Shown here in pieces: positions 4,953 to 57,500 of a stretch of 64,000 nucleotides of DNA. Numbering within the stretch: position 1 is the stretch's first letter; each line of letters opens with the position of its first letter. The DNA lies in assembly GCA_961205875.1 (NCBI GenBank), contig OY540809.1:12226267-12290266 (forward strand), read 5' to 3'. The DNA comes from Sialis fuliginosa (Eukaryota; Arthropoda; Insecta; Megaloptera; Sialidae). A model generated the notes under the pieces. It did not search any database, was not told the origin of the DNA, and saw nothing but the letters and a program-made list of their open reading frames with translations. The translations under genes were made by a program, and so were the position numbers.

Positions 4953-5500
4953 CAATAGGCATGATGCCAGTAACAAAGTATCACTGAAATTATGATTTTA
5001 AATAATGAAATAAATTAAAAAGATTCTAAAAAATGTATTTATTTTTATATTAATAGCGAGATTAATATGATTTTTGTTAAAATAAAAACACAAAATACAG
5101 CAATCCGCCATGTTTGATAAAACACCAGTTAGAGTAGGTGACATCACTGCTACGTAAACGTCATTTTTGTTTCATTAATATCTGCACTGTTTATAAATTA
5201 TTTTGTGGTTTTAAATTATCAATTTGCTCAGTTTTGTGTTACTAAAAGTAAAATCGAGAAAAATTAGCGATGGAACAAGGATTTATTATAGTTGACAAGG
5301 AGTGTTTACATAGGCGTAACGTCAAAAATGCACCATGACACCTGCGAGCGTTTTGGCATCAAATTCAAAATTAGTTTTAAAAGGGTCAATTTTTGTGATT
5401 AAACCTTTATTTTCTGCAGAAATAAGCATTTTTTTGAAAATAAAAGACACGTAAGATCATCATAAAATAGTTTTTTTTAAATTAGGCATCATGCCTATTG
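4953..5500. mobile_element. MITE family 'AATAGGCATGATGCC', copy 1
   Basis: Sixteen-base terminal inverted repeats CAATAGGCATGATGCC / GGCATCATGCCTATTG bound 548 bp. The internal sequence is shared with an inverted copy at 41056-41567 and a half-length copy at 43257-43599. This copy contains about 40 bases, ending ATTATAGTTGAC, that are absent from copy 2 and sit at the end of copy 3. No ORF. Confidence 0.8.
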
Positions 5501-8172: not shown

Positions 8173-8895
8173 TTACACACGATCAGACACTCGACTTGCT
8201 ACATTTCTTAGTTGTCCGTAAACTTTGGAAGGAGGTGATCCAAGAATTAAATTACAAACAGCACGTCTGGCTAGTTGAATATTTTGGAAACTACCAAGAA
8301 TGTGTATTTTACTGTCTGCTAATACTATCCTCGTTTTTGTTACGTTTTCTATAGTGAATTTTGTTCTGCCGCTTTTTCCTGCTAATCTACCAATTGCTCG
8401 AGACATGTGATCTCCTTTCAACGTTTTTACATCTTTTATTTCAAAACTTTCTACAAATAAATCATCTAATCGTAACAATGCAAGTGCATCATCGACATCA
8501 AATCCGTAAACAAAAGCTCTAACAAAGTCGGCTGCTTTTTGTAAATTTGCTATGTCTGTTGTTTCGTTGCACGTCCTAATTTCTACGTTCCTTGTCTTCA
8601 AGTTAAATCTTATTTGAAGTTGTAAGTATTCTACGACAGGAGTAAATATTTTCAGCCAATTTTCTTTCAACGGTGAATATCTGTGTGACGGAACTGGAAT
8701 TTTTCTTATTTCCTTCTTTTCTTTTTCAGATAGTGGTTTAGATTTTACTTTCTTCAAACGTTTTTGTCTTATATTTTTATTTTTACTTGGCTCATCCACA
8801 TCCATAGATTCTGATTTTGTTCGTTTTGACTTTGCTGGTACAAAATTGTCAGTGTCTATATTGACTGGTTGTTTATTAGTATCTGATGTATCCAT
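8173..8895 (-). CDS. Pno1: PNO1 (Dim2), 40S ribosomal subunit assembly factor
   Basis: A single uninterrupted frame of 240 residues, near the usual size for the family. A Lys/Ser-rich low-complexity N-terminus (residues 1-65) precedes the diagnostic block [20 protein letters not shown] and then [18 protein letters not shown]. The C-terminal half holds the KH-like RNA-binding region ([20 protein letters not shown], then [20 protein letters not shown]). In the family this nucleolar/cytoplasmic protein binds near the 3' end of 18S rRNA and positions the endonuclease NOB1. The start chosen is the first methionine of the frame (8893-8895) and leaves a typical length. AATAAA-type signals in the minus sense occur at 8154-8164, immediately after the stop. 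No intron and no damage. Neighbouring genes are unrelated. Confidence 0.96.
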
Positions 8896-28610: not shown

Positions 28611-28788
28611 GATCTAGAGAAAACGCTAAGTTAAGACTATCTGCAGGGTAATAAATTTTATAATTCGTTATATTTACCAGTGGCGGGTTTAACGATAACC
28701 ACCCGAATATCGCAGTAAGTGTTTTTGGATGAAAACAAAGAAGTCGGACATGAATTCACAATTAGAGAAGATTTTAAAGTCAATTCAT

Positions 28789-29012
28789 ATAACAAACAAC
28801 AGACAAAAACTATGGTTATGACTTATCAAATACAAATCCCCTAACCATAAAAATTGTAAGAGTTCAGACTTACACGTGTTTCAATAGCAATGCTATCATC
28901 ATCAGTGGTCTTTAAGACTCTGATGATGATAGCATTGCTATTGAAACACGTGTAAGTCTGAACTCTTACAATTTTTATGGTTAGGGGATTTGTATTTGAT
29001 AAGTCAATTCAT
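28789..29012 (+). mobile_element. Penelope-like fold-back insertion inside the hAT element
   Basis: The direct repeat AAGTCAATTCAT (28777-28788 and 29001-29012) flanks the insert. Most of it is a perfect 86-bp inverted repeat (28820-28905 and 28920-29005) around a 14-nt loop (28906-28919). The repeated unit carries CTGATGATGATAGC ... GAAACACGTG, the layout of Penelope-like element termini with hammerhead motifs. No reverse transcriptase is present. Confidence 0.65.
28911..28964 (+). ncRNA. Candidate type I hammerhead ribozyme
   Basis: The conserved core CTGATGA lies at 28920-28926 and GAAA at 28943-28946. Stem I: AGACT (28915-28919) pairs with AGTCT (28955-28959). Stem II: GATAGC/GCTATT with loop ATT lies between the two cores. 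Stem III: ACAC/GTGT (28946-28953) has no loop, as in the very short or palindromic stem III of many Penelope-associated hammerheads that act as dimers. The expected cleavage site would be after A28954 (GTA, an allowed NUH triplet). Activity is inferred, not shown. Confidence 0.55.
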
Positions 29013-40981: not shown

Positions 40982-41653
40982 CTTACACACTAGCGACTTT
41001 TAGCAGCACAATAGTCGCGTTGCTAAATCCCATGGCATGCTATTTGCTATTGAAACAATAGGCATGATGCCTAATTTTTAAAAACTATTTTATGATGATC
41101 TTACGTGTCTCTTATTTCCAAAAAAATGCTTATTTCTGCAGAAAATAAAGGTTTAATCACAAAAATTGACCCTTTTAAAACTAATTTTGAATTGGACGCC
41201 AAAACGCTCGCAGGTGTCATGACGCATTTTTGACGTCACGCCTATGTAAACACTCCTTGTTTCTCGGTTTTACTTTTGGTAACACAAAACTGAGCAAATT
41301 GATAATTTGAAACCACAAAATAATTTATAAACAGTGCAGATATTAATGAAACAAAAATTACGTTTACGTAGCCGTGACATCACCCACTCTGACTGGTGTT
41401 TTATCAAACATGGCGGATTGCTGTATTTTACGTTTTTATTTTAACAAAAATCATATTAATCTCTCTTTTAATATAAAATTAAATACATTTTTTAGAATCT
41501 TTTTAACTTATTTCATTATTTAAAATCATAATTTCAGGGATACTTTGTTACTGGCATCATGCCTATTCTGAACGAAAATAATTGACGTCGGGTAGCATGC
41601 CATGAGATTTAGCAGCACGACTATCGCGCTACTAAAAGTCGCTAGTGTGTAAG
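40982..41653. mobile_element. Outer MITE 'CTTACACACTAGCGAC' split by another MITE
   Basis: The left arm (CTTACACACTAGCGACTTTT ... CCCATGGCATGCTAT) and the inverted right arm (GTAGCATGCCATGAGAT ... AAAAGTCGCTAGTGTGTAAG) are each about 62 bp and about 90% alike. Almost all of the interior is the inserted element at 41056-41567. Confidence 0.75.
41056..41567. mobile_element. MITE family 'AATAGGCATGATGCC', copy 2 (nested, inverted)
   Basis: The same terminal repeats as the copy at 4953-5500 (CAATAGGCATGATGCC / GGCATCATGCCTATT), in opposite internal orientation. It lacks the roughly 40-base segment present in copy 1. Confidence 0.8.
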
Positions 41654-43256: not shown

Positions 43257-43599
43257 AATCGGCATGATGCCAGTAATAAAGTATCACTGAAATTATGATT
43301 TTAAATAATGAAATAAGTTAAAAAGATTCTAAAAAATGTATTTATTTTTATATTAAAAACGAGATTAATATGATTTTTGTTAAAATAAAAACGCAAAATA
43401 CAGCAATCCGCCATGTTTGATAAAACACCAGTCAGAGTGGATGACGTCACGGCTACGTAAACGTAATTTTTGTTTCATTAATATCTGCACTGTTTATAAA
43501 TTATTTTGTGGTTTAAAATTATCAATTTGATCAGTTTTGTATTACCAAAAGTAAAACCGAAAAACATTAGCGATGGAACAAGGATTTATTATAGTTGAC
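43257..43599. mobile_element. MITE family 'AATAGGCATGATGCC', half copy 3
   Basis: Begins AATCGGCATGATGCC and follows copy 1 closely up to GGATTTATTATAGTTGAC, then stops abruptly. One terminus only. Confidence 0.75.
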
Positions 43600-48057: not shown

Positions 48058-51000
48058 TTATTTTCTTTTTCCTTTCTTCGTAGAAGTAGTCGCTGCCGAT
48101 GATGGCTCCTCAATAATTTCTCTTGCTTTTTGCCAATTCAATGGTTTACGACGATACATTGGCCATGGTGGAACAGTTATCTATAAAAAATATTACATAT
48201 TTCAGAGCTGTGAACAACTACAAGAAATATGTACTGAAGTACTTTTTACAAAAATGTTCTTAAGTACTTTTAAAATTTCATATTATATTATATATATTTA
48301 TAAAGCTATTTATAATCAAGCGCGGATTCAGGGGGGTCATGGAGGACATGACTTCCCCCTCCCTCGAAACTTCAAAAATCAAAGCATATTTAATATAAAA
48401 TTGCTTCAATTTCACAGACCATGCCCGCCCCCTCAATTGTAAACCTAAATCCGCGTCTGTTTATAATAAAATAAAAAATATCTTTGATCGGAGCCCCAAA
48501 ATCAGTTTGCATCTAGTGCCTCCAATTTAGTTAAACGCACAGAGTAGCAATGAAATCCAAAAAATCCTTAATACGATACTGAACATTCGAAAATAACCGA
48601 GATGAGCCGAATCCGAATTATTGTTTTGTTATCTGTCAAACATGCGTTTATTTTGTTCCTCTTTCTTCCTGTTTTTAATATTATGATGAAAAATATTTAG
48701 CTGAACTTAAATATTTTTTACTAAAATATTATAATTGTGACACAGATATAGACAGTAAGTACATAGTTTTAATTATTGTAAGTAGGGTTAGTTTTTATTT
48801 TATTTTAACAATTGTTAATATTCCTATTTTAGAATAAACGTTGTTTGACTGTTTTCCGTAAATGAAAAATATGGAGTATAATTATTTACCAAAGAAATTA
48901 AAGTGTAAGCGGGGTCAAGAATTATATCTAGAATTGATCGAAGGTGATAGATACGAAGGAAAATTCCATTCACAAAACGAAGATTCTGGTCGGCTCACAT
49001 TGTTTGATGTGAAATATATTGATGCGGATACTAAATATACATCTTTATTTTACTTCTCAACAAATGAAGTGCGAGTTTTAAAAATTATAAACAATTCTGT
49101 TGAACAGGAAATCAAAAAAACATCTCCACAAAAATTAAAGATCGAAATCAAAGAAAATGATATTGAAAATAAAAAAGACGAAAACAATTCAAAAATACCT
49201 GCATGTGAACTATTTCGTTTATCTGAAATGGCACGAAATTATATAGTGTTGATTAAATTAAATAATAGATATTTTGAAGCAATCGATCATTTAAGCGGTA
49301 GTGAAATTATTGGAGTCGACGGCAAAAGTGCAGATTTTGGACGGAAAATGGAACTTTCTATTTTAGTTCTCTCTACGTGGGATCAAGCATACGTCTTTGA
49401 TATTAAAAAAATGGGTAAAATTTGTTTTGACAAAGGATTAAAAGATATACTCGAATCCAAGAGAATTTTCAAAGTTGTTCACAATGGTGACAAATTATCA
49501 GATTGCTTAATGCACCAACATAATACATATTTGCGAAATGTTTTTGATACATTTGTAGCGGATAAACATTTAATGAAACGCAAAGAAATAGACCTGCTTC
49601 CAAAATCCCGGACGTTAGCTGATATTGTCCAGGAATATTTTGGAGTACCAAATTTGATCGATTCCGTTAATGCTAGTGTTGCTAAATGGAATCACAGACC
49701 ACTATGTGACGTTCTTAAAAGTAAAGTCACAGATAATTGTATTTATTTAATAAGTCTATCAAATTTAATGAGAAAAGAACTGAATAACACTTTTTATAAA
49801 GCTGTTGATATTTATCTTGATTCGATAAGAGAAGTAGACTCTGGAGAAGCACATTATATAATAACAAGATTAAACAAGTTACCGAATGGTTTTAAAGAAT
49901 TATCTTTAAGTAATACCAACAATGGAGTTGATAAGTAACAAGAAAATTATATATGTATGTTTGTAAAACTGTATGATACATAACTTCTATGTATAATTCA
50001 GGGGTTATTTTAGTGTGTAGTTGTAGCTTGCTTCTGCAGTTCTAAAAATGAAAACTGCAGTTGTAAAAGCTAATTTGTGTAGTTGAAAAATTGCAAGTAG
50101 AATGAAACATATAAACCATGACAATTATATTCTGATACAACGCTTTATCGACAATATACCATTATTTTAACAACCCATTCTTTATCAAAAAACAATTCAA
50201 AGTACCGTTATGTTATCTAGTATATCAATAATCATGTAAAATAATTATATAATTTAAATTAGTCTTTTCGAGTATGAAAGTATATCGAGAAATAATATTT
50301 AAAAAAATTCAAGAAGGTATGTCTCAAGGAGACATTTTTATTTCATAATTGATCTAAAACTAAAGCTAGAGCAATCCCACAACTCCCAGAATGACAGAGT
50401 TTGGTCTGCTAGAATTGAGGACATCCCGGAAGACAAAGGCACATTTCAAGATTCTAGAATGCTGCATCGGTCATGGTTTGGGGCCCCATCACTCCAAGAA
50501 GCAAATTACTCTTAATTTTTATCGAAAAAGGCATAAAAATCAATGCAAAATACTATTTGGAAGAATAATTGACGAGAAATGTCATGCTAAATGCAAAAAA
50601 ATTATTTGGAGATGATTATTATTGCTTTCAACAAGATGAAGCTAACCTCCCACACAGCAAACATTACTGAAGCATGGTGTAAAGATAATTTGGTTGATTT
50701 TTTGTTGAAGAATGAATGGCCGTCAAGTTCTCACGACTGCAATCCTCTGATTATTTTGTATGGTCATATATGTTGTCTAAGCTCTCAGATTACAAATTCT
50801 CAAATTTTCAGCAGTTTAAGAATATTATTCTCAAAATTTGGGACAAAATGCCAATGAAAACAGTGCGTGCCGCTTGCAATGACTTTGAAAGAAGACTGAA
50901 GCTAGTTATCAAAGTTAAAGGAGGAGTTATTCCCAAACACTTTAAATTTTCAATACATAATATGTCTACTTTAAGAATTGAATATTTAAGCATTTTCATT

Positions 51001-54548: not shown

Positions 54549-57500
54549 TTATTTTGGTGCTCTTTGGCAAATTTGCACAACAGTTTTTTTATTTTGTTCT
54601 AACATTGGATTTCTTTCATATAATTCTGTATTAATTGGCTCGTTATCATCTAAATCATATATACTTTTCTTATCAAACAATTTTTCTATTTCTATTAAAG
54701 TTTTCCCCTTAGTTTCTGGTAAAAATGCCAAAACAAATAAAGTACCTATAAATGAAACAGATCCATAAAACATAAACAACCCAATTTTACCCATTGTGCA
54801 CAACATTTGGGGATAAATTTTAATAATTATAAAACTAAATGTATACCCAGCACACGTTGTTATTCCCCCAAATAACCCCCTTACACGTGTTGGATAAATT
54901 TCCCCAACCATTGCAAACGGGATTGCTAAAAACCCTACCGTTGATGTAAGAAAATATAATAATAATGTAACAACTGGTATCCATTTGTAAGAATTAATTG
55001 ATACATTGTCAACACTATCAGCTACAGTCGTTGTACTCAATGTAGTGGACTGATAAAATTCAGTTGTAGTCGCATTACTAAATTGATCATCTATAACTTT
55101 ACATGCATCGTTATTTTGTGATGTATTTAGGAAATACAAATAAGCGACAAGAACTGCCATACAAATCGTCATTCCTATACCAGAACCAATACTAGGTATC
55201 CTACGTCCGTACCTTTTAGAAATATTCCCAACTGACATAGCAGCCAATACTCTAATAACTCCTATAAGTACAATCATTATATATGGATCTATCATAATTC
55301 CAGCTTCTAAAACGATATCAACTGAATAGTAAATCATGATCATTATTCCTGATAGTTGTTGGAATAAAAAAAACATTGACATAATTAACAATGGCTTGAT
55401 ATAATGTGGTTCAGTAAAGTATGAAAGTTTTTCTGAAATGTTTCTGGTGATTCTTCGAATGCAGAATGTACTATTCGAGTTAGAAGTTCTTCTAATGTCT
55501 TGGGATCCAGTATTTCTATTTCTTATTCCGGAAGAGAAAGATATTGAACTATACCCTTTCTGTTCTGTATTTAATAAACTATCAGTTTCGCGTTTTGCCT
55601 TTTCGTCTCTTTTTTCCAACCATATCGGTGATTCAGGAAGGAAAACTGCAATTCCAATTATTGTTAGAAAAGCAACCAACGCTGATATAATTGCCAGTAG
55701 TTTCCAATCGCTCTAAAAATGTACATTTTGTATTATTTTGGTTTCTGTTTGTTGTGAAATACGAACCGGGAAAAACAATCCAAGAGTATAAATGATAAGA
55801 ACTCCCAATGCGAAAGTGACGCTTGTCCATGTTGTTAACATTGATCGCATTGTTGGTGTAGATATTTCACTTACGTACACTGTAGTTGGTACACTTGATA
55901 AACCCATTCCCAAACCTTTAACAAATATATTTTAGTTATGATTCGTTTTACCGAAAAAGTGCAGACTAGAATATAATATTAAAAATTAATTTTAAAAAAC
56001 ACTGAAAAGTATATACTTAATAATTAAATTTAACAGTTTTTGAAATCGGTTTGTTTTTTTCTTTCTGAAAAAGTTTTTTATTGGCTTGGCACCGATTTCA
56101 AAAATTATTAAATTTAATTATTATATACTTTTCAGTATTTTTAGTGGTTTTATTTTTTTTCTTAAAAACGTTAAAATTTATATGGGACAACCTTGTGAGT
56201 ATGCTCCTTCAAACAAACAAAAATTGTCTAAATCGGTGCATATTTGTCGGAGTTACGAATTGAGAACATCCTTAGTTTTTTGAAGTCGGTTAAAAATTGA
56301 TTATGCCTTTAAAAAATGTTTTCAGGAAAAATGAATAATACATAAAATAAAGAAAAGATAATAATTTTGTCTGGACATTCTAGAGAATATTATTATTTCG
56401 GAAAAACAGTATAATGTAATAGAAAAATGTTTTTTTTCTACACGTACCGTTTCAAAAATATAATTGCATTAATTGGCAAGAGTTTTGGTTGTAGAGTGTT
56501 CACAAATAGACAGACACACATACGTTATTGAGATAATGGTCGTACTCGAATTGAATTGAATTTTATTCTCCTCTAAATTCGACCACGGCTATTCAAATAT
56601 AACAAGAAATTTTAATAATTAGAAGAAATGTATAGACACTTACCTGTAATAAATCTACCAATCAAAAGTAAGGCGTAACTATCAAATATATTTATTTGAT
56701 CTGCTAAAGCAATAATAATCCAACCAATTATCATAACAACATTTGTAAAATACAAGCTGAATTTTCTTCCTTTTTTATCTATTATTGGCCCACATAATAA
56801 ACATCCTATAGGTGTTGCTATAGATGCTATACTAGCTGAAAATACAAATTTATCATTAATAAAACATTTTTTATTTTAATCCACAATTAATATAAATAAA
56901 ACAAATTAAAAGATTTTATCATTTTAATCTATGTAATAATTGTTACAAATAATGTAGTTAAAAATAATGTTGCATCTAAATGAGGTCAAAGGGGTAATTA
57001 TATCTGTTTGATGGCGAAATTAGGTAATGTGGCGCATTTTAATCGATGCATTTATTACAATTTATTAACATAATAAAGAAATAAAGTTTGTGTGTGTGTT
57101 TGACCGAAGTAATCTCGATAACTACTGAACCGATTTTGACGAAACCTACACCAACATGTTCCTTAAAATCTCAGAAGTGCTATAGGCTACATATAATCAC
57201 GGTATCGCTCAAAATAACTCATCAGTGAGTATTTATAATTTTTTAATTCCCAGGTAACACTAGAGTCACTCCAGTAAGAGTCTGGACTGCGCGGATCAAT
57301 TTTTGATTGTTTGTAATAGTCAAGTGTTGCTCACAGCTGTATTTTCTGATATTATCAGTCAATATCATTAAATATACTTTATATTATTACATTATGTTCA
57401 ATTTTAATGGTATTTTTTTTATACTTGCTAAAAATAACAAACAAATGATCTTATTAAAACGCCGATTTGGCTAAAAATGGCGACACTGTCGAGACTGGAG

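Follow-up and report, generated by a model that had tools for sequence, protein, structure and literature searches.

What leaves two perfect inverted arms in a genome, with a motif resembling a hammerhead ribozyme in only one of them? This question is raised by a palindrome in the window, by which we mean the whole stretch of 64,000 nucleotides that was analysed, on contig C1 of assembly G000 (392 Mb in 20 contigs). An earlier note made from the letters alone had described two identical arms 14 nt apart, of which the right one fits a hammerhead, and had brought in the Penelope-like retroelements (PLEs). The feature is a terminal repeat (pLTR) insertion of an EN+ PLE that encodes reverse transcriptase (RT) and GIY-YIG domains, and the locus is one ordinary member of a set of hundreds of such insertions, not a stand-alone ribozyme locus. 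We hold it very probable that it is a non-coding, two-sided insertion of the PLE terminus, in which both target strands were primed and the two cDNAs, begun at different sites, were joined at the 5′ region of the RNA. Its parts are as follows.

28777-28788, no strand: left target-site duplication AAGTCAATTCAT, with an identical 12-mer at 29001-29012
28789-28822, - strand: 34-nt PLE tail, present at the left end only, matching the 3′ end of the PLE copies L080 and L081
28823-28905, - strand (PLE sense): left cDNA, pLTR, with the hammerhead core but without the 5′ strand of stem I
28906-28919, no strand: junction of the two cDNA 5′ ends, as L080 shows by comparison (26 copies have 18 inner-junction types)
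28915-28959, + strand: PLE-type hammerhead motif, predicted cut 28954/28955
28920-29002, + strand (PLE sense): right cDNA, pLTR, starting at RT site B (TTTGATAA)
29001-29012, no strand: right target-site duplication AAGTCAATTCAT, which shares the AA of site B through microhomology

The arms at 28820-28905 and 28920-29005 are exact reverse complements around a 14-nt loop (28906-28919), and the full run is 87 bp (28819-28905 / 28920-29006) rather than the 86 bp first reported. Only 28823-28905 / 28920-29002 is the element-derived part of this match. The outermost 3-4 bp of the right arm (29003-29006) lie inside the target-site duplication, where the match to the tail is coincidental; the apparent perfect arm is lengthened because the duplication continues like the tail for a few letters. 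The span 28820-29005 given in the earlier note thus holds for the palindrome and fails for the element, whose tail, target-site duplication and family structure it missed. The 12-mer AAGTCAATTCAT has two matches in the window against 0.03 expected. These duplications enclose two head-to-head copies, 3′ ends outward, of the stretch that leads from near the inferred transcription start to the 3′ tail. The left half has RT start site A (28789) at its outer end and the right half has site B (29002), and the 34-nt tail is what lies between site A and site B (28822/28823) on the left, where the PLE sense is the - strand. By origin, the ‘loop’ is the meeting place of the two cDNAs and belongs mostly to the right-hand one: TCTTTAAGACT (28909-28919) is the 5′ part of the PLE RNA, and TGG (28906-28908) is junction sequence. 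The left cDNA misses the inferred RNA start by 15 nt and the right one comes to within about 4 nt of it, which is why a good stem I exists on the + strand only, as had been remarked (5 bp for the right arm, 0 bp for the left). The recent formation read from arm identity also fits, both arms coming from a single insertion event. The PLE protein (L078 frame) had no match in the window, and a tRNA search of the window found none. The window also carries inverted repeats of about 310 bp of a different repeat family, 95-96% alike (41258-41567 / 43257-43566, also 4954-5261), and host-like frames (8173-8895, 1367-1846, 48862-49938 and 54549-55679) of the kinds PNO1-type KH protein, dsRNA-binding motif, 3′-5′ exonuclease and sugar transporter.

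Searched against the genome, the left arm with the loop yielded at least 70 matches (40 of 1113 candidates scored) with 92-100% identity. We read 21 copies, then 19 more, then 16 of 31 further loci; the remaining 15, without an exact match on the strand shown, entered later computations only. The repeated unit is about 130 nt (up to about 132) and consists of the tail, then the arm, often finishing near AAAGACACT; copies carry one unit, or two head to head, complete or shortened. Exact matches genome-wide number 751 for the pLTR end and 380 for the tail, and reversed patterns gave none. In L078 and in L057 (the latter by eye), the unit runs on into protein-like sequence. The 524-aa frame of L078 scores 51.1 bits with RVT_1 (PF00078) and 20.8 bits (E 0.00048) with GIY-YIG (PF01541), just under the cut-off of 22.6. 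At C9:1293221-1297379, two PLE frames stand in tandem with a pLTR unit (L081) between them. Since the unit continues into an RT and GIY-YIG frame and also sits between tandem frames, it is the pLTR of an EN+ PLE, which answers the genome-wide search that the earlier note had proposed for the ends of such elements. The characters of this class are present: RT with a C-terminal GIY-YIG in one frame (L078), tandem and inverted pLTRs and, for a tail of 30-40 bp at one end, the 34-nt tail and 12-bp duplication of the window locus. A sister family, B, has 56% amino acid identity to the window's PLE family. Two loci are worth recording. At C9:1293221-1298730, two tandem coding PLE units lie on one side and a shorter head-to-head unit on the other, with A and B ends and matching flanks; L036 (C3:32444000-32445700) is a two-sided copy with direct partial pLTR repeats in one arm, as if by template jumping. 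Elsewhere on C1, the matches listed include TTAGG arrays near the contig end (from 47090730) and in several interior places; this repeat points to an arthropod host.

Where does reverse transcription start, and where does the RNA? In PLE sense, the pLTR reads ...TATGGTTAGGGGATTTGTATTTGATAA (site B) GTCATAACCATAGTTTTTGTCTGTTGTTTGTTATA (site A). TATGGTTA can pair with TAACCATA, leaving site B in the loop, and this stem is present in the predicted L080 fold; the whole L080 segment folds no better than shuffles (z -0.60). At the other end, a TATA box, TATATAAATA, begins 33 nt upstream of AGTGTC in L079-L081 (counted by eye), and in family B TATATATA precedes an ATCAGTC start-like site (by eye). 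Among 100 measured cDNAs, taken from copies chosen by similarity to the query with whole arms or tails, 60 end within 5 nt of AGTGTC (40/58 starting at A, 20/42 at B). From these sequences we infer that the PLE RNA would start near AGTGTC.

How are the two start sites combined? Exact-match places were taken from the first 100 each of pLTR end and tail, with contig C1 fully covered. On C1, 18 pairs lie less than 600 bp apart, and in all 18 the 3′ ends point outward. Seventeen are A/B and none is A/A: 15 of the 18 have the exact tail on one side only, two (L092 and L093, counted as A/B after reading) have a mutated tail on one side, and L091 is kept as the exception, its start lying 7 nt into the tail. 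Among the tail matches listed, none lie less than 1 kb from each other (by eye). A pair on C2 at 4948275/4948812 (537 bases apart), without exact tail, was left out of this reading. Across contigs, 58 distinct A-end copies were compiled, and in 43 of them a B end stands at the other side; the copies used for end, arm-variant and cDNA counts were picked by similarity, some with a tail-holding query, so that the share of A ends and the arm lengths are no census. Flanks share at least 9 nt in 37 of the 43 two-sided copies, as against 2.8% in randomly re-paired controls, and the commonest shared length is 12. The coding copies were surveyed by a protein search that scored 82 of 1003 candidates. 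Its 83 listed rows include 9 head-to-head pairs and 1 tail-to-tail pair of neighbours on opposite strands less than 8 kb apart, and the pairs span query identities from 98% down to about 31%. All three head-to-head coding pairs of family A with both ends read are A/B; their flanks are reverse-complementary on C14 and C9, with a simple-repeat target on C11, and the arms of two-sided coding copies are unequal in length. For L079, a coding copy with a B end, no second pLTR was found in 1 kb upstream (L130). Taken together, these copies indicate that the two start sites are probably used as a pair, one per target strand.

Mechanistically, the endonuclease would nick the two target strands about 12 bp apart, and the two 3′ ends would then prime the copying of short PLE RNA, each from its own site in the tail hairpin. 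The two cDNAs would extend toward the RNA 5′ end and be joined by small deletions or microhomology, giving the palindrome, with the hammerhead carried along as part of the RNA 5′ region. Such a scheme has biochemical precedent: in vitro, a PLE enzyme cuts and extends both target strands, beginning at two adjacent internal sites with the tail between them, and a dimeric form is predicted for it (excerpts of PMC11167929).

Do the two cDNAs of one insertion come from one RNA or from two? An independent RNA could serve each target strand, with the start sites chosen independently; in vitro, both strands are extended with no apparent difference in start site between them in the excerpts of that study (PMC11167929). 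Independence would predict roughly half of the pairs to be A/B, and 17 of 18 are. That expectation is itself rough, since some one-sided B groups are really two-sided: C1 has 33 one-sided B groups and 26 with A or tail only, and among the 17 of the 33 B groups read, at least four (L100, L102, L103 and L108) proved two-sided, with the tail mutated or shortened on one side. The variants of the arms bear on the same point. Twenty-six two-sided copies could be compared at 50 positions or more. Their two arms have six variants in common, where permutation gives a mean of 0.47 and a maximum of 3 in 1000 rounds; one of them, a C, is found in both arms of four copies and in a single arm in none of the 26. 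Fifteen variants are private to one arm, nine of these in four copies. Sharing of rare variants above permutation speaks against independent RNAs, although a preferred source locus could give the same result. We consider two independently primed RNAs unlikely.

The pairing of A with B and the variants shared by the arms suggest one RNA and two enzyme subunits, so that both cDNAs of an insertion were perhaps copied from a single RNA. In its general form, which we put forward tentatively as something that may well prove too broad, every PLE insertion would be made by paired RTs reading one RNA twice, one subunit from site B and the other from site A, 34 nt downstream, each for one target strand. 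A-with-B pairing together with arm-shared variants would be the signature of such paired reading. If it is true, palindromes that have been attributed to self-priming are its normal outcome, and single-ended copies are those in which one strand failed.

Self-priming has been proposed in print for Adineta vaga, whose head-to-head PLE palindromes were explained by self-priming on antisense RNA, a sense template being left possible (excerpts of PMC3846280). Here, a PLE antisense RNA or the first cDNA would fold back at its AGTCTTTAAGACT end and copy itself, yielding the palindrome in one molecule. In its favour, the cDNA end is self-complementary, some junctions (L023) are perfect palindromes, and arms share variants. 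Fold-back copying should, on the other hand, reach site A and the target and so leave A/A ends, of which the C1 pairs offer no example in 18. There are also one-sided insertions, flanked by target duplications, that start at site B (L094, L096), and two-sided coding copies have unequal arms. On these three grounds the copies favour two-ended target priming over self-priming, which we judge improbable. The inner junctions, being of 18 types, further argue that palindromes arise repeatedly and were not all copied from one; the commonest types recur 5, 3 and 3 times in the 26 copies, which leaves room for some copying of ready-made palindromes.

Two-ended priming explains the palindrome, and the ribozyme motif can be treated in its own right. 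Every block was found at the position reported for it on the + strand: AGACT at 28915-28919, CTGATGA at 28920-28926, GAAA at 28943-28946, then ACACGTGT, A28954, and AGTCT at 28955-28959. In the predicted pairing, AGACT and AGTCT form stem I, CUGAUGA is followed by one extra nucleotide, GAUAGC and GCUAUU form stem II around AUU, and the 3′ side consists of GAA, the palindromic stem III ACACGUGU and A17. Written in PLE sense, the motif is TTTAAGACT-CTGATGA-T-GATAGC-ATT-GCTATT-GAA-ACACGTGT-A-AGTCTAAA; it is sense in the PLE RNA and lies 15 nt past the inferred start.

Could this resemblance be a chance by-product of the palindrome? Two results point that way. The Rfam check suggested earlier was negative, RF00163 giving no match to the window motif at gathering or at E<=10, an outcome that the earlier note had listed among its refuting conditions, and the 61-nt hammerhead segment folds no better than shuffles (z +0.60). 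Nor does the same model call PLE-type motifs next to other RT frames of this genome: it gives 17.7 bits for family B against a cut-off of 34 and nothing for groups C and D, so that it is no fair test of this subtype. Its genome search found no match, and since 14 control genomes likewise gave none, that search is uninformative. Some microRNA models also matched the palindrome (mir-458, 35.3 bits against 59); these were rejected, as any long hairpin may give such matches. The motif itself stands in sense beside PLE frames that lack a palindrome (L079-L081). A descriptor, made after the motif was seen (CTGANGA, at most 1 nt, stem II of at least 4 bp, GAA, a palindromic A..T stem III, H, and stem I of at least 3 bp), matches one site in the 64 kb on both strands and none in 300 dinucleotide shuffles.

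The stems also show compensatory change. The motif of family B, AGGCTC-CTGATGA-G-GACTTC-TTGT-GAAGTC-GAA-ACACGTGT-C-GAGTGA, keeps the core and stem III of the window family and replaces stems I and II with pairing retained. Together with the RT and GIY-YIG frame into which the arm runs, it bears out both the tie between a hammerhead with tiny stem III and a PLE and the compensatory pairing sought in other genomic copies. Groups C and D, which neighbour RT frames of more distant kinds, and E and F have CTGAAGA or CTGACGA and a 4-nt palindromic stem III. Across seven motif groups paired with their own partners, stem I pairs at 23/28 positions and stem II at 30/35, values reached by 2 of 5040 permutations; for this comparison the stem positions were set by hand, because the MAFFT alignment was good for A and B but put C and D in the wrong place, F1 and F2 were defined by motif only, and L123 was left out. 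In all seven groups, A9 and stem II are separated by one nucleotide in the best register. Of 26 loci (12 + 14) next to RT frames or between them, 19 have the whole motif as judged by eye; L115 and L119 have a deletion in it, L123 has the core without palindromic stem III, and L088, L089, L114 and L122 have no CTGANGA in the sense of the frame. In group E (L087), stem I has only 2 bp next to the core. Further hammerhead-like sequences were seen in passing: CTGACGATGATTCTGTGAATCGAAAGCTTG, with stem III AGCT, in L087, L086 and L049, in L087 beside a distant RT frame, and motifs of other PLE groups, such as CTGAAGA-T-GTTAACTGCAATGTGTAAC-GAA-ACGT-T, in L078 (C1:16747700-16757600, both strands) and L071. 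By its core and compensating stems, the motif is a putative minimal hammerhead of PLE type, and we give very little credence to a chance resemblance.

What such a ribozyme would do is another matter. In the parent PLE, the predicted cut falls after about nt 50 of the RNA, and cleavage would probably be dimeric, through the self-complementary stem III and/or with PLE protein. By analogy, an 8-nt self-complementary stem III suits the dimeric cutting proposed for PLE hammerheads, which may act as dimers (excerpts of PMC7761336). At the window locus itself, the full palindrome is predicted to form a single hairpin of -152.8 kcal/mol, so no cleavage is expected from a full transcript; the 86-bp hairpin would mask the putative ribozyme. 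As for the copies, 87 of the 100 measured cDNAs (A-start 52/58, B-start 35/42) pass the predicted cut, so most of those templates were uncut there. Ends within 3 nt of it number 4/58 for A starts and 0/42 for B starts, and ribozyme use is therefore hardly visible in the measured copies. The four A-start ends at the predicted cut perhaps reflect a few cleaved templates. The many cDNAs that run past the cut suggest that the hammerhead had left most retrotransposed RNAs uncut, in agreement with in vitro work in which it needs protein and is dispensable for insertion (excerpts of PMC11167929).

A foldback element or MITE, moving like a DNA transposon as a ready-made palindrome, would account for the high copy number, the inverted repeats and the nearly fixed length of target duplication, and can practically be set aside given the tail at one end, the one-sided copies with duplications, the 18 junction types in 26 copies and the arms that enter a PLE frame; symmetric terminal inverted repeats moved as a unit, as in that class, were not found.

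The preferred reading, two-ended target priming from paired start sites, matters beyond this locus. In the publications as excerpted, PLE palindromes have so far been read as self-priming, while in vitro work gives two start sites and extension of two strands. With its hundreds of similar insertions, of which many are short and two-sided, this one genome offers a natural record of single events, each legible at both ends, and paired use of the start sites is directly testable with purified PLE enzyme. A literature search, with subscription journals mostly outside it, found no paper on A-with-B pairing as judged by title or abstract opening, and none joining Penelope, target-primed reverse transcription and head-to-head arrangement.

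Among known systems, taken here from excerpts of the papers cited, the closest are Pen2a and Pen3a of Adineta vaga (PMC3846280). As here, they have inverted head-to-head pLTRs with a tail at one and target-site duplications, TATA/Inr elements in the pLTR, a palindrome at the pLTR 5′ end and sometimes unrelated DNA between the pLTRs. One of their pLTRs is 37 bp shorter, the tail is 31 bp and the duplications are 8-10 bp in the examples given. The present family differs in its hundreds of copies, mostly non-coding among those read, in a duplication of usually about 12 bp, and in lengths set by the inferred RNA start.

Poseidon PAc of Anolis carolinensis (PMC11167929) resembles it in the cutting and extension of both strands, in two internal RT starts that bound the tail, and in a hammerhead nearby with one extra nucleotide after A9, judging from the printed template. 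In PAc, an AC-rich stem-loop within the ORF holds the start sites, and the start codon falls within the hammerhead, whereas here a plausible ATG in L081 comes after both start sites (by eye), and the tail is rich in U and G on its sense strand. The excerpts do not describe coupling of the two PAc start sites within one insertion.

The putative hammerhead shares its core order, tiny helix III and pLTR location with the minimal type I hammerheads of PLEs, which lack helix III or most of it (PMC7761336, PMC6155905). It is distinguished from them by a stem III that is an 8-nt palindrome, ACACGUGU, and by A at position 17; stem III of groups C and D is ACGU. Metazoan non-LTR retrozymes (PMC7229834) are likewise short non-coding retroelements with type I hammerheads. 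The copies do not belong to that class: retrozymes are direct tandem repeats with canonical hammerheads, whereas those read here are head-to-head pairs or single units, with short direct repeats in L036 only.
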